This document shows, one piece after another, positions 53,446 to 60,858 of a DNA stretch of 64,000 bases (positions within the stretch are counted from its first letter, which is position 1; every line of letters begins with the position of its first letter). Location: the NCBI GenBank assembly GCA_021158465.1, contig JAGGUN010000028.1, positions 85,871-149,870 on the forward strand, given 5' to 3'. Origin of the DNA: a bacterium (GTDB taxonomy: Bacteria > UBP14 > UBA6098 > 4484-93). The translations under genes were made by a program, and so were the position numbers. Under the pieces are notes generated by a model. It saw only the letters and a list, made by a program, of their open reading frames with translations. It made no database searches and had not been told where the DNA came from.

Positions 53446-54867
53446 TTATTTCGGCAAGCGGGTTAAGCGGATAAGGTCGGCAAGTGGACCGGATATCCTC
53501 AGGCATATGGTATTCTCTGTCGAATCGGTTATCTTGAACAGCCCTGAGATGCCTCCGCCGGGGATCCAGGCGAGTTTGTCGTTGAAGAAGACCGCCGGGA
53601 TATACCGCCTCAGGCTGCTGAAATTGAAGCGGGTCTTAAGGTATGATGAGACCTTTTTGTATCCTTCGAGACCCAAAGGGAGGAAGGTTTCACCCTTCTT
53701 AGGTGTTCGGACGGTGACCTTTGTGTTGGGTGGGAAAGAGAGAAAGACGGTGCATTCATCGTCTGAGAATCTTTCTGCTCCTCTTTTTGCCGGCTCGAGC
53801 AGGATAGTCCCAAGGTTGCAAGGGATGGAGACGGAGTTTGGGATGTGTGAAACCAGCTCTTCCATCTGGAAACAGGAGGGGAGGAAGGAGAACAAAACGA
53901 GCTCCTTTTTCACCTCTAAGGTAAGAGCGTATTCTCCCCTTTTTGTCAGCACAAGGAGGTTACTTCTGCCGGAGAGGTTTCTCCAGGTGCTCCTGACAAA
54001 CGCCGATGTGAACCCTTTGAGCCCTATGCCGAAATGTTGGAGGGCGAATTTTAGTATCTCGCCGAAAAATAGCCTTCCAAGGGAGAGGATCTTCTCTTCG
54101 AATAGAAGAAATTGCTCGGACGATAAGAGTGTATTCTGGGCAATTATCTCCCTGCTGACACCCTTCAGGAACTGTTTCTGCTCCTGGATGAGCGATACTG
54201 CCGTGTATATATGTTCCCTGGTGTGTGGGTTGAACTTCTCGAGGTATGGGATGAGCTCGAGTCGTATCCTGTTTCTGGAAAAGGAGGGAAAGAGGTTTGT
54301 GTGGTCGGTTCGGAAATTGAGTTGGCGTGAGTGAAGATAGGCGAGGATATCCTCACGGAATAGGTCGATGAGTGGCCGGATGTAGAAGCCGCGCTTTGGG
54401 GGGATGCCGGACAACCCGTCGATTCCCGTTCCACGGAGCAGGTTGAAGATAAATGTCTCTACTGCATCGTCTGCGGTATGTCCTGTGGCAACGACTCCAC
54501 CGAAGTCCCTTATGATCTGTGAGAATATCTCCTCCCGTTCCAACCTTGCTTTCTCTTCGGAGAACCTCTTCATCTCGATGTCGCGGATTGCTGTCTGGTA
54601 GCCGTACATCGCCGCTATGGTCCTTGTGAACCTCTCATCGGCGTCGGAGTCGCCGCCTCGTGTGTGGTGGTTTATGTGTATAACGCGGATGAAGATTCCG
54701 AGTTCATCTTTCAGCGAATGGAGTATGTCGAGTAGTGCAACGGAGTCGGGTCCACCGGAGACAGCAATCCACACCTGCTCGCCACCGGAGAGGAGCCTTT
54801 TCTCCTGGATCGTATTTCTTACGGTGTCTAAGACACGCCTGATTGTTTTATTCTGTGAGCCTCTCAC
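53446..54867 (-). CDS. tilS: tRNA(Ile)-lysidine synthase TilS
   Basis: TilS converts C34 of the CAU tRNA-Ile to lysidine. The PP-loop motif SGGPDSVALLD lies near residue 33, followed by HINHHTRGGDSDADE, GHTADDAVETF and GTGIDGLSGIPP, all PP-loop ATPase landmarks. The C-terminal part carries TilS-specific domains, with KGETFLPLGLEG. The frame is open to 54918, but the GTG at 54867 has GGGGAAAG at good spacing and leaves only a 20-base overlap with the mcsB-like gene; it gives 473 residues. Confidence 0.93.
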   Translation of the reverse strand: MRGSQNKTIRRVLDTVRNTIQEKRLLSGGEQVWIAVSGGPDSVALLDILHSLKDELGIFIRVIHINHHTRGGDSDADERFTRTIAAMYGYQTAIRDIEMKRFSEEKARLEREEIFSQIIRDFGGVVATGHTADDAVETFIFNLLRGTGIDGLSGIPPKRGFYIRPLIDLFREDILAYLHSRQLNFRTDHTNLFPSFSRNRIRLELIPYLEKFNPHTREHIYTAVSLIQEQKQFLKGVSREIIAQNTLLSSEQFLLFEEKILSLGRLFFGEILKFALQHFGIGLKGFTSAFVRSTWRNLSGRSNLLVLTKRGEYALTLEVKKELVLFSFLPSCFQMEELVSHIPNSVSIPCNLGTILLEPAKRGAERFSDDECTVFLSFPPNTKVTVRTPKKGETFLPLGLEGYKKVSSYLKTRFNFSSLRRYIPAVFFNDKLAWIPGGGISGLFKITDSTENTICLRISGPLADLIRLTRLPK

Positions 54868-55876
54868 GAAGGATCTTTCCCCTTTGCATATCGAGCTCCC
54901 TGAGCGGGAGGTTCTCACCTGTGAATGCCCGGATGTGCTCGGGTTTTACCAGATAGAAGAGTTCGAGTATGTTGGTCTTGTCGATTTTGAGAATGCCAAG
55001 GACTGCCCCGATGAGCAGCTTGTTGAGTATCCCGATTGCCTCCTCGAGCGAGATGAGAACGGAATGCGTGGCAACCCCGAAGGATTTCATCACCCGATCC
55101 TGTATCTCGAGGGGGAGGATGTCGGTAAGCTCCTTACGTGCCTTTGTCTCGGCATCTACTATCTCCTCGGCGAACTCTGTAGCCGAATCGATAATCTCTT
55201 CCTCAGAGAGACCAAGGGATGCTTTTGTTGTTGCCTCCACGAGGACAGAGTCGGGTGAGAATATCCTCAACTGCAGGTTGTGTCGAAGCATCATCTCCTT
55301 GAGCAGGTCGAATTTCTTGAGGATTATTATCCCAGGGATGAGGAGGAGTACGCCTGCTCGGAAGCCTGTTCCACAGGAGAGGAGGTCGCTCGTCAGGTAA
55401 CCGAACTGCTTGTCGAAGGCGAACTGGAAGGATTCTTCCAAGGCGTCCTCGATGAAGAACAGCTTTGGGTAGGAGGAGCTTCCACCCTTGCCGGGGGAGG
55501 AAACCTTCATTGTTAGGTGATCATGTGAACAGAGAAGGATCAACAGGTTTTCATCCCTGCTGACGAAGGCTGCCGTACCTTTCTGTCTGGATGAGAGGAG
55601 CCTTGTGGGGAAGTCTCTCTCGGCAAGGTATCGCCACTCTGAGGGTGGAATCTCGTCGAAAGAGATATGGTACATCTCGTCCCCGAATTGCATCTGTTCG
55701 ATCTTCTGGGCGATGGAATCGGCGAGTGAGCGCCTCTCCTGTGGGGACATTCTGGCAGGGAATTTGTTCTTGCTGATATTCCTTCGCAAGGTAAATGTAT
55801 ACTCCAGCAGTATATCGGAGGTTCCGAGAGCCTCATATCGGGCAGGCAGGCGTGGTGGAAAAAGTTCTTGTATCAT
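54848..55876 (-). CDS. mcsB: McsB-like phosphagen-kinase homologue, probably catalytically degenerate
   Basis: McsB phosphorylates protein arginines to mark proteins for ClpCP. This 342-residue protein follows mcsA and aligns over the family length, with GTGFRAG at 169-175, HDHL at 118-121 and SLGLSEEEII near 220. However, the usual SSRxRxxRN reads EYTFTLRRN at 25-33, NEEDHLR reads CSHDHLT at 116-122, CPTNxGTG reads DLLSCGTG at 164-171, and RGxYGE reads RIFSPD at 204-209. These changes remove two nucleotide-binding Arg, a catalytic Glu and the active-site Cys. It may be a pseudokinase scaffold or phosphoarginine-binding protein. ATGA overlaps mcsA. Confidence 0.85.
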   Translation of the reverse strand: MIQELFPPRLPARYEALGTSDILLEYTFTLRRNISKNKFPARMSPQERRSLADSIAQKIEQMQFGDEMYHISFDEIPPSEWRYLAERDFPTRLLSSRQKGTAAFVSRDENLLILLCSHDHLTMKVSSPGKGGSSSYPKLFFIEDALEESFQFAFDKQFGYLTSDLLSCGTGFRAGVLLLIPGIIILKKFDLLKEMMLRHNLQLRIFSPDSVLVEATTKASLGLSEEEIIDSATEFAEEIVDAETKARKELTDILPLEIQDRVMKSFGVATHSVLISLEEAIGILNKLLIGAVLGILKIDKTNILELFYLVKPEHIRAFTGENLPLRELDMQRGKILRERLTE

Positions 55877-56361
55877 TTCCCCACTTTGTTTAGAATATCC
55901 CTTATCATTGCGGCATACTCGAAGTTTTCCTGCTTGATAGCTTCCTGCAATAGTTCTTCAAGGTGCTTTTGACTGCTTGAAAGGATGGTTTTACTTCCTG
56001 GAGAAGAGCCTGTATGCTTTGGAAACGGAACGAGCTTCTGCAGGATAGAGTTTATCTGTTCCCTGAAGTGGGTATAGCATTCCGGGCAACCGACAGAGTG
56101 GTGCTTGATCATATTCTCAAGCTCCATGCCGCAGGAAGGACAAGGGGGGATTTCTTCGCAGGGTGTAGTTTGTGCCAGTTCCTCGATGACATCGCTTATT
56201 ATGCTGGAGATGAACTTTTCCGATTCCTGGAACTGCCTTGATCTCAGGTACTGCTCGAAGCAGGCATCGCAGAGGTAGAACTCTTCTTTTCCCCTTCTTG
56301 TAACGAAGACAACCTTGTGGGTTGCTGGTTGTCCACACATCTTGCATCGAGCCTTACTCAA
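55873..56361 (-). CDS. mcsA: McsA-like zinc protein with UVR motif
   Basis: A 162-residue protein with two zinc-binding CxxC pairs, CKMCG (7-11) with CDACF (32-36), then CPSCG with CPECY near 75-95, and a C-terminal UVR motif (LEELLQEAIKQENFEYAAMIRD). This is the McsA layout. McsA activates the McsB arginine kinase and regulates the stress repressor CtsR in Firmicutes. Neither ctsR nor clpC is in the window. It overlaps lolD by 8 bases and the mcsB-like gene by four. Confidence 0.92.
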   Translation of the reverse strand: MSKARCKMCGQPATHKVVFVTRRGKEEFYLCDACFEQYLRSRQFQESEKFISSIISDVIEELAQTTPCEEIPPCPSCGMELENMIKHHSVGCPECYTHFREQINSILQKLVPFPKHTGSSPGSKTILSSSQKHLEELLQEAIKQENFEYAAMIRDILNKVGK

Positions 56362-57049
56362 CTTTCCCCTCCCATTTGATTACTGAGAGCGTACCTCCGC
56401 TCAAAAGATACACCTTTTTTGCCCTTTCTGCAAGTTTTATATCGTGAGTTGCAAGCAGAATTGTTAGGTTCTCCTCTTCGTTCATTCGGCAGAGCAGCTC
56501 CTCTATCTCGTGTGAGTGTCTCTCATCCAGGTTTCCGGTTGGTTCGTCGGCTATCAAAAACTGAGGGTAGTTGGCGAGTGCTCTGGCGAGGGCTACCCTC
56601 TGTTGTTCGCCGCCCGATAGCTGATTAGGGAAATGATGTGCCCTTGAGCTTATCTCGAACTTGTTGAGCAGGGACATTGCTCTACTCCTTGCCTCCTCAA
56701 ACGCTCTGCCAGCCACAAGGCAGGGGAGCATAACATTCTCGAGTGATGTGAACTCCGGCAGGAGATGATGAAACTGAAACACGAACCCGATGAAACGGTT
56801 CCGAAGCTGAGCCATCTTCTCGTCAGAGAGTGAAAGGCAACCTCTTCCGTTGAGAAGGAGCTCTCCTGCTGTTGGACGGTCGAGCAGACCGAGTATGTGC
56901 AGAAGTGTGCTCTTACCTGTTCCGCTCTCGCCGGTCACAGCGACAAAGTCGCCAGGATTTATCCTGATGTCTATCCCTGAGAGAACAGTAAGCTCCTCGT
57001 TGCCGGAGCGGAAGATTCTCTTTATCCCTCTTGCCTCCACGATTGCCAT
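56354..57049 (-). CDS. lolD: Lipoprotein-releasing ABC transporter ATPase (LolD-like)
   Basis: LolD powers LolCE, which extracts lipoproteins from the inner membrane. The 231-residue ABC ATPase has Walker A GESGTGKST (about 38-46), Q-loop FVFQFHHLLPEFTSLENV, signature LSGGEQQR, Walker B FLIADEPTGNLD, and the LATHD H-loop. The match to the MacB/LolD subfamily is clear, but LolC/E permeases are not adjacent, so the transported substrate is inferred. The start ATG is 11 bases after a candidate -10, without a ribosome site. Confidence 0.9.
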   Translation of the reverse strand: MAIVEARGIKRIFRSGNEELTVLSGIDIRINPGDFVAVTGESGTGKSTLLHILGLLDRPTAGELLLNGRGCLSLSDEKMAQLRNRFIGFVFQFHHLLPEFTSLENVMLPCLVAGRAFEEARSRAMSLLNKFEISSRAHHFPNQLSGGEQQRVALARALANYPQFLIADEPTGNLDERHSHEIEELLCRMNEEENLTILLATHDIKLAERAKKVYLLSGGTLSVIKWEGKVE

Positions 57050-58560: not shown

Positions 58561-60858
58561 TTATTTTAGTATTACAATCTTTTGAATAATGGAGGCTTGC
58601 TCACCGTTAAGCAGGAGGAAATATATACCGCTCGGATAATTTGAGAAATCGAATGAGAAGCCGTTCTCTCCGGGGGAGAGAGAAACTATTTTCTCCTGCA
58701 ATTTCTCTCCGAGGATGTTGTATATTCCGAGATTTGAGCTTGTCTTTCTGCTCGATATAATCTTGAGCTTCACCTGTGCATTTGCCGGGTTCGGGAAGAT
58801 GGAGACAGAGAACCTCTCCGGTCTCTTTTCCTCGATGGCTGTTGTATCGGCTGTCCAGCGGTAGATGAGAGATGGGGAGCCGACAGCGTATCCGAGGGTT
58901 GAATCGATGAATGTTATGTTGTAGATGCGCTCATCCGCTGGCAGAGGGATAATCTCCCAGCTTAGTCCTCCGTCTGTTGTGTGGTAGAGGTCGCCTGATG
59001 CGAGGAAACCCTCGTTCTCGTTTATGAAATGCAGTCCGCGAGGGCGTGGTATGTCGAAATCCCAGGAGGTAACATCGGAGAAGTAAGAGATATGCTCCCA
59101 GCTCAATCCTCCGTCCGTGGTCTTGAAGATTTTGGAGTTCCCGTTGACAAACCAGCCGAGTGTATCGTTCAGGAAGAATATATCCAGGATTCCTCCGGCG
59201 GAGCGGATTTCCAGTGTTTCCCAGCTCTCGCCGCCATCCTCTGTTCTGTATAGTGTGTCGTCGTAGGTGCCGATGAACCCGAGAAGCGAATCGTAGAAAT
59301 AGACCGAATACATAGGTATCGGCAGGTTGAGCGGTGGGTAATCGTATCGGCTCCAGGTTTCTCCGCCGTCTGTGGAGAATGTAACATTGGATATGCCCTC
59401 GCGCCATCTCGTTTGTATCCCGACCGCCCAGATGTGAAGCGAATCGGCAACGGCAATGTCCCAGAACTCCGTCACCGTGTCCTCGAAGCAGGTCCACCAA
59501 CTGTGCCCACCATCTGTTGTTCTTCTGATGGTGTAGCAGTCATTGAGATTATATATCCTCTGGATGAGGAAGCCGTATCGCGAGTTCCACATATCTATGG
59601 TCGGCTCCCATCCGAAGAAGTATGGCTCTGCCCAGATATCCGTGAGGTCGGAGGCGTCTGGATTGCGGAAGTGGTAGATGTATGATTGTACCAGATAGTC
59701 CGATATCCAGACATTGCTGTCAGGGGTGGAGCAGATGTGGAGGTATGTGCATATATCGATTGGGAATACCCTGTTCCAGGATGCTCCTCCGTCCTCGGTG
59801 AAGTAGACATTCTTGGTTGAGCCGACCCAGACCGTGTCCTCTCCGAGGCTCTTTACGAATGTGTACAGGTCCGAGCGATAAGACGGTGGCTCGATAATCT
59901 CCCAGGTTGCCCCCATATCTGATGTTATTGCGATGCAATAATGGACATCCTCACCGGCAGAATAGAGTATGATGTTTCCGCCCGAATACGCTACTTTATA
60001 GTATCCGTCGTAAAAGTAATCTATAAGCACAGTATCCCATTCTGCTCCGCCTGTTTCGGTGTACAGTACCCCGAATTCCTTCTGGCTCGGCCAGCAGGTG
60101 AGTTCACCGTACATCAGTCCCGGGTAAGTGATTATGAAGGTATCAAGCCCTGTCGGTATCACCGTCCGTATCAATATCGAGGGGGGAAGAGGAGGCGTAA
60201 ATAACAGGGTGGATGTTTCTCCTCTGTCGTATGTGGCGTAGACTCTATTATCACCTCTCCAGTGGTAGTAATAAACGGAATCGTTGAACCAGGAAACCCG
60301 AATGTCGAATCCAAGCCAGTGTGACCTTTCCCAGCTCTCGCCGCCGTCGGTGGTGTAGACGACGAATGCACTATCTGCCGAGCCCCATGCATCACATACT
60401 ATAGTCAGGGAGTCGATGAAACTGCCTCCTCCGGGGTAAAACCCTGTTCCTGGAATTGTTGAAGGGGCAAGTATGGTATCCCAGGTTGCGCCGGCGTTGG
60501 TCGTCTTCAGGATGTAGCGTAAAAAGCCGTAGATTGAGGGGTCATAGGTTCTACACCCGAGGTAGCCGAAATCCTCGGTGAAGAAACGCATACCGGTGAA
60601 CCCGGAGAACCCTGCACTGGAGGCGGTGATGACCGGCTCGAATGTTCGCCCACAATCTGTTGAACGGAAAACCCCTTTCCACTCATTGAGGAGGTAGTAG
60701 ACCTCGTCTGATATTTTCTGGATGTCCGAAAACCGTCCCCCTCCTACAGGCGATTTCTGGACGAGTTCCAAACCGGCAAAGAGACAAAAAGGAATAGATA
60801 GGATAAAAAGGATTAAAGCCCCCTTAAAAAGGGGGCTTGGTAGGGTGAACTTACTCAT
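58561..60858 (-). CDS. Secreted YCF48/BNR-type beta-propeller with T9SS C-terminal domain
   Basis: A 765-residue exported protein. It has a signal peptide ending near LFAG, then many repeats of the TTDGGxSWE type (TTNAGATWD, TTDGGESWE, TEDGGASWN, TTDGGHSWW, TEDGGESWE, TTDGGLSWE), which form sialidase/YCF48-like propellers. The end, from FPNPANAQVKLKI near 685 to IIQKIVILK, is a T9SS type A-like sorting domain with the YNILGEK strand. Its first codons contain a strong hairpin (60816-60838). The ATG overlaps the stop of a small Cys-rich gene by eight bases. Confidence 0.88.
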   Translation of the reverse strand: MSKFTLPSPLFKGALILFILSIPFCLFAGLELVQKSPVGGGRFSDIQKISDEVYYLLNEWKGVFRSTDCGRTFEPVITASSAGFSGFTGMRFFTEDFGYLGCRTYDPSIYGFLRYILKTTNAGATWDTILAPSTIPGTGFYPGGGSFIDSLTIVCDAWGSADSAFVVYTTDGGESWERSHWLGFDIRVSWFNDSVYYYHWRGDNRVYATYDRGETSTLLFTPPLPPSILIRTVIPTGLDTFIITYPGLMYGELTCWPSQKEFGVLYTETGGAEWDTVLIDYFYDGYYKVAYSGGNIILYSAGEDVHYCIAITSDMGATWEIIEPPSYRSDLYTFVKSLGEDTVWVGSTKNVYFTEDGGASWNRVFPIDICTYLHICSTPDSNVWISDYLVQSYIYHFRNPDASDLTDIWAEPYFFGWEPTIDMWNSRYGFLIQRIYNLNDCYTIRRTTDGGHSWWTCFEDTVTEFWDIAVADSLHIWAVGIQTRWREGISNVTFSTDGGETWSRYDYPPLNLPIPMYSVYFYDSLLGFIGTYDDTLYRTEDGGESWETLEIRSAGGILDIFFLNDTLGWFVNGNSKIFKTTDGGLSWEHISYFSDVTSWDFDIPRPRGLHFINENEGFLASGDLYHTTDGGLSWEIIPLPADERIYNITFIDSTLGYAVGSPSLIYRWTADTTAIEEKRPERFSVSIFPNPANAQVKLKIISSRKTSSNLGIYNILGEKLQEKIVSLSPGENGFSFDFSNYPSGIYFLLLNGEQASIIQKIVILK
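60816..60838. repeat. Perfect GC-rich palindrome in the propeller gene's 5' coding region
   Basis: AAGCCCCCTT-AAA-AAGGGGGCTT is a 10-base-pair stem with a 3-base loop. It lies at about codons 7-14 of the gene at 58561-60858, in the signal peptide's n-region, which is read as LPSPLFKGA. On the mRNA it is followed by a U-rich stretch. It may be an attenuator or an inserted short palindromic repeat. Confidence 0.55.

Follow-up and report, generated by a model that had tools for sequence, protein, structure and literature searches.

McsB is known from work on its kinase activity, which produces a bacterial counterpart to the ubiquitin tag. A lysine scan of B. subtilis McsB showed that R29, R31, R34, R125, R176, R207 and R337 are each essential for the kinase, even against replacement by Lys, while only the stimulation by McsA depends on R86, R255, R272, R281 and R341 (PMC7235348). 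In S. aureus, the loop equivalent to the pre-Cys loop described below docks the zinc finger of McsA (PMC12467219).

The window considered here, i.e., the whole stretch of 64,000 nucleotides that was analysed, contains a co-directional run of genes for a LolD-like ABC ATPase, McsA, McsB, TilS and IleS, with the following features at and around mcsB:

53446..54918, (-) strand: tilS-like PP-loop gene, whose listed frame shares bases with the mcsB end
54848..55876, (-) strand: mcsB homologue, 342 aa, with degenerate kinase motifs (ORF, profile and fold match)
55388..55423, (-) strand: codons of the pre-Cys loop, mcsB residues 152-163 (FAFDKQFGYLTS), just before the lost catalytic Cys
55873..56361, (-) strand: mcsA homologue, 162 aa, with two CxxC zinc fingers and a UVR motif
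56354..57049, (-) strand: LolD-like ABC-transporter ATPase, conserved upstream of mcsA in all four families of the phylum

The mcsB ORF (54848-55876(-)) opens with an ATG that lies within the stop of mcsA (ATGA, 55873-55876), and this 4-base overlap bears out the coupling to mcsA that an earlier note on this DNA had proposed. The true start of tilS may be located further downstream than that of the listed frame. Profile searches with the mcsA product gave a UVR match (3e-5) and a match to the NCBIfam McsA model (4e-18), the latter with a score below the equivalog cut-off (65.8 vs 210 bits); in an alignment of 12 McsA proteins, the features of the McsA activator, two CxxC zinc fingers and the UVR motif, were present in this protein encoded next to mcsB. 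Elsewhere in the window, at 58561-60858(-), a large protein was recognised by eye, in which BNR/photosystem-assembly-like motifs are repeated and the C-terminus forms a sorting-like tail.

By homology, the window protein is a member of the phosphagen-kinase family (PF00217, 6e-25, 88.2 bits against a cut-off of 22.4), and it also matched the NCBIfam McsB models (2e-51 and 2e-47), with scores that fall well short of the equivalog cut-offs (161.8 of 500 bits for NF053707 and 175 of 385 bits for NF002194). Among solved structures, those of McsB are its closest relatives. An AlphaFold2 model built from five sequences, namely the window McsB and four homologues of which two are intact McsB, had a pLDDT of 79.8 and a pTM of 0.76, and its superposition on B. 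subtilis McsB (6tv6) gave a Z of 32.0, an rmsd of 2.9 Å over 337/342 residues and a TM of 0.87. The matches of this predicted model to McsB structures span the whole length, dimerisation domain included, and the lowest confidence falls on the pre-Cys and Cys loop (residues 151-170). The model thus indicates that the full-length two-domain McsB fold is retained, in agreement with the earlier description of a full-length, in-frame protein.

The positions of the active site were mapped by alignment and are numbered as in Geobacillus McsB, with the window residue in brackets. The substitutions are R28 (T27), R30 (T29), E121 (H118), R125 (T122), C167 (D164) and R337 (L328), and a deletion in the lid loop is followed by E212 (D209). 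The residues kept are R33 (R32), N34, R176 (R173), R207 (R204), D122, H123, D338 (D329), R341 and the GTG turn. Hence, T27, T29, H118 and D164, previously singled out as signs of motif degeneration, are recovered by the alignment, and R125T is a further loss. The loss of kinase residues is well supported by this alignment: the catalytic Glu121, the reactive Cys167 and the essential Arg set required of an McsB kinase are not retained, as four of the seven Arg essential in B. subtilis are gone. The phosphoarginine-receptor motif RDxxRA (R337 D338 xx R341 A342) reads LDMQRG, which departs from the motif. At two of the positions that couple the protein to McsA, 272 and 281, the window copy has Lys and Val, respectively. 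Cys168 was considered as a relocated catalytic Cys and rejected; its counterpart in the alignment is position 171, where the intact f3 relatives carry a Cys too (CPTNCGTG), which makes it an ancestral Cys.

The phylum was sampled with 17 genomes in four families (f1 to f4), with the window genome in f1. One mcsB is carried by 15 of the 17; 13 of these copies, in f1, f2 and f4, are degenerate and two, both in f3, are intact (the copy of G015 is a fragment, and that of G016 lies on two contigs). The order lolD-mcsA-mcsB recurs in all four families wherever the contig allows, which identifies the copies as orthologues. The same-genus sister species shares T27, T29, T122, D164 and L328 with the window protein. 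A recent local mutation or a sequencing error was rejected: degeneration extends to the sister species and to two further families. The possibility that the gene is a paralogue, or was transferred, and coexists with a normal McsB was rejected for this genome, as mcsB is its single PF00217 gene and the operon is arranged as in the intact orthologues.

The sister species differs from the window protein by an Arg for H118 and a Gly for R204 (the R207 position), and none of the eight core residues is left in the f2 copies. That the window protein is an active arginine kinase with unusual residues is hardly credible given these losses and the absence of Glu, Cys and four essential Arg from the window copy, even though R204, R173, R32 and the GTG turn are in place there. 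The replacement residues differ from family to family, and even between both f1 species; thus, the copies show no new active site in common. This variation bears on the idea of a remodelled pocket, i.e., a different enzyme or a ligand-binding site devoid of phosphagen-kinase residues. Such a pocket would fit a predicted full-length fold under purifying selection, and H118, D164 and C168 could make a polar site in the window copy; with replacements so variable, and H118 being Arg in the sister, we regard it as unlikely.

Based on the f1 pair, the dN/dS of mcsB is 0.157, compared with 0.151 for tilS, 0.117 for mcsA, 0.098 for ileS and 0.086 for lolD, the overlap with the neighbours covering a small part of the gene; in the f2 pair, the value for mcsB is 0.090. 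Purifying selection on the degenerate mcsB persists. Because these values are near those of the neighbours, mcsB is not a decaying relic; a functionless gene in slow decay, shielded by its 4-base overlap with mcsA and by the tilS frame near its end, would also be hard to reconcile with the full length of every complete copy in three families and with the retention of about 59-65% of the non-catalytic conserved sites. We therefore hold such a relic to be very improbable.

The loss is concentrated on the kinase residues. In a held-out test, sequences were chosen by the loss of one catalytic residue and the remaining residues were scored; the other catalytic residues were kept in 24-34% of cases, compared with 63-65% for other kinase-conserved sites (p 0.001-0.004, to be taken as indicative because the sequences are related). 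Similarly, and with the same reservation that related sequences are not independent observations, the kinase-essential Arg are kept at 22% in the phylum vs 97% in intact copies, whereas the McsA-coupling Arg are kept at 67% vs 72%. Of the coupling residues, R255 and R341 occur in all scored copies of the phylum and R272 in 82%, while R281 is poorly kept. The contrast is less marked outside the phylum (30% for the kinase-essential and 47% for the McsA-coupling Arg). Additionally, the alignment of homologues showed that the pre-Cys loop is conserved while the Cys position is occupied by Asp, Ser, Asn, Arg or Lys.

In a wider sample, a PF00217 match was found in 149 of 386 genomes, about 143 of which were read (five high-scoring genomes and one very low-scoring genome were left out). 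All eight core residues are kept in 96 copies, and 33 copies, distributed over 19 families (three in this phylum and 16 elsewhere), keep at most three of the eight. Some families are intermediate between intact and degenerate McsB. One of them, f9 (L161, L162, L170), shows a graded decay, in which two genomes are devoid of only C167 and E212 and the third has an McsB without R28, R30, E121 and C167. Counting a few fragments, mcsA adjoins 32 of the 42 copies that score below six of eight, compared with 89 of the 104 others. When loci of 4.5 kb or longer are counted, 9 of 30 copies that keep at most three residues have a clpC-like gene nearby, as do all six intermediate copies and 57 of 71 intact ones. 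In family f20 (L137, L138), which includes a genome consisting of one 2.5 Mb contig, mcsA and mcsB adjoin a clpC-like gene and McsB carries E121D, C167S, R207V and E212D. Family f84 (L153, L156, L157) encodes very divergent McsB-like proteins, and mcsA was not detected near their genes.

The earlier note had placed mcsB in a lineage without visible ctsR-clpC. As for ctsR, this holds, given that no CtsR was found in the 17 phylum genomes searched; as for clpC, it does not, since the window genome encodes a ClpC-like protein with two Clp_N domains, two AAA domains and a UVR motif in the M-domain (contig C17), along with ClpP (contig C11). The ctsR-clpC operon arrangement is absent, and in the phylum clpC is located outside the mcsA-mcsB operon. 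The ClpC-like protein (L255:736-3207 (+), G000 contig C17) has Asp for Glu32 in the first phosphoarginine pocket, with VDH for TEH. Position 32 is Asp in f1 and in G008 and G009 of f2, and Glu in f3 and f4; the ClpC phosphoarginine pockets also serve resting-state contacts of ClpC (PMC12583610), and the Asp is therefore no guide to a joint decay of these pockets with McsB.

The sole LMW phosphatase of the genome (L256:963-1451 (-), G000 contig C4) is encoded directly after a Sua5/YrdC-like gene and has the P-loop CTGNTCRS, with the YwlE-type Thr. From the case of YwlE, we take a Thr at this position to mark arginine phosphatases; in f2 and f4 it is often Ser, Ala or Ile. If McsB is dead, no phosphoarginine would be made, and the YwlE-like phosphatase would consequently be idle.

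The retention of ClpC and of this phosphatase would be in line with a reader of phosphoarginine, that is, a dead McsB whose C-terminal RDxxRA pocket still binds the modification and which hands on tagged proteins. Of this pocket, f1 and most of f4 retain D338 and R341, and R341 is the sole residue that is always kept in the phylum alignment. Against this, the window protein has Leu in place of R337, a residue that the B. subtilis kinase needs and that is lost in every scorable phylum member outside the intact f3, D338 is lost throughout f2, and the genome, with its single PF00217 gene, has no known source of phosphoarginine. The suggestion of a phosphoarginine reader, put forward previously as one of two possible roles, is thus weak, and we consider it quite unlikely.

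The other suggested role, an adaptor with McsA, fared better. In our view, the gene is the McsB orthologue in its ancestral lolD-mcsA-mcsB position and is probably kinase-dead, serving with McsA as an adaptor or regulator of ClpC(P). Several observations support the maintenance of a pseudokinase: conservation across families, purifying selection, the predicted fold, the retained mcsA and the selective loss of kinase residues. Judging from the residues lost, the protein presumably has no kinase activity, and a McsA-McsB complex would persist, in which McsA may dock on the retained pre-Cys loop. This complex could recruit clients to ClpC-ClpP, or hold or release the protease, with phosphoarginine tagging not used. 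FtsH or Lon had also been named as partners; ClpC-ClpP is more likely, both components being encoded in the genome. In B. subtilis, McsB-C167S keeps part of the effect of McsB on MgsR degradation, a part that is kinase-independent (PMC7235348). Nevertheless, the ClpC-adaptor activity of B. subtilis McsB is mostly kinase-dependent (PMC5506225), and the retention of R207 and R176 in the window protein, its Lys and Val at the McsA-coupling positions 272 and 281, the YwlE-type phosphatase and the location of clpC outside the operon also speak against a pseudokinase adaptor.

Regarding its origin, an RpoB tree joined f1 with the intact f3, weakly (61% support), and the loss inside the phylum may have happened once or more than once. 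The tree of McsB copies, in which long branches are present, needs about 8 changes, and a topology that unites every degenerate row in a single clade is not rejected by the AU test (p 0.81). The trees suggest several losses, but the copies may equally be one ancient pseudokinase class. A broader and tentative proposal, which we hold with less than even confidence, is that the degenerate copies form an ancient, widespread class of pseudokinases with the phosphagen fold (~19 families), each the sole McsB of its host, that would run a phosphoarginine-free McsA-McsB-ClpC quality control.

If the pseudokinase reading is true, a natural kinase-dead McsB kept with McsA would mean that the complex has a selected function other than phosphorylation. 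Some of the copies that appear kinase-dead sit in mcsA-mcsB-clpC clusters, which makes the question of kinase versus adaptor directly testable. Caution is also due with many annotations as 'protein-arginine kinase', which are unfit for inferring phosphoarginine signalling. In open-access full text, we found no description of a pseudokinase, pseudoenzyme or inactive form of McsB or of a phosphagen kinase.

The closest known system is the McsB kinase of B. subtilis, G. stearothermophilus and S. aureus (6tv6, 6fh1, 8gqd), with which the window protein shares the two-domain fold, as predicted, the neighbouring mcsA, and the conserved pre-Cys loop, RN, DH and R341 residues. It differs from this kinase in the absence of the catalytic Glu, the reactive Cys and most of the Arg that bind ATP and phosphate, as well as in the loss of R337 from the phosphoarginine pocket, the absence of ctsR and the location of clpC outside the operon. 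The B. subtilis C167S mutant is likewise a kinase-dead McsB, whose effect on MgsR was read by its authors as that of a kinase-independent adaptor (PMC7235348); it is, however, a laboratory point mutant, whereas the window protein is natural and devoid of many pocket residues. According to a study of bacterial Ser/Thr pseudokinases (PMC12599244), these are also kinase-like proteins without catalytic residues that are kept in evolution, but their fold is unrelated to that of the phosphagen kinases.
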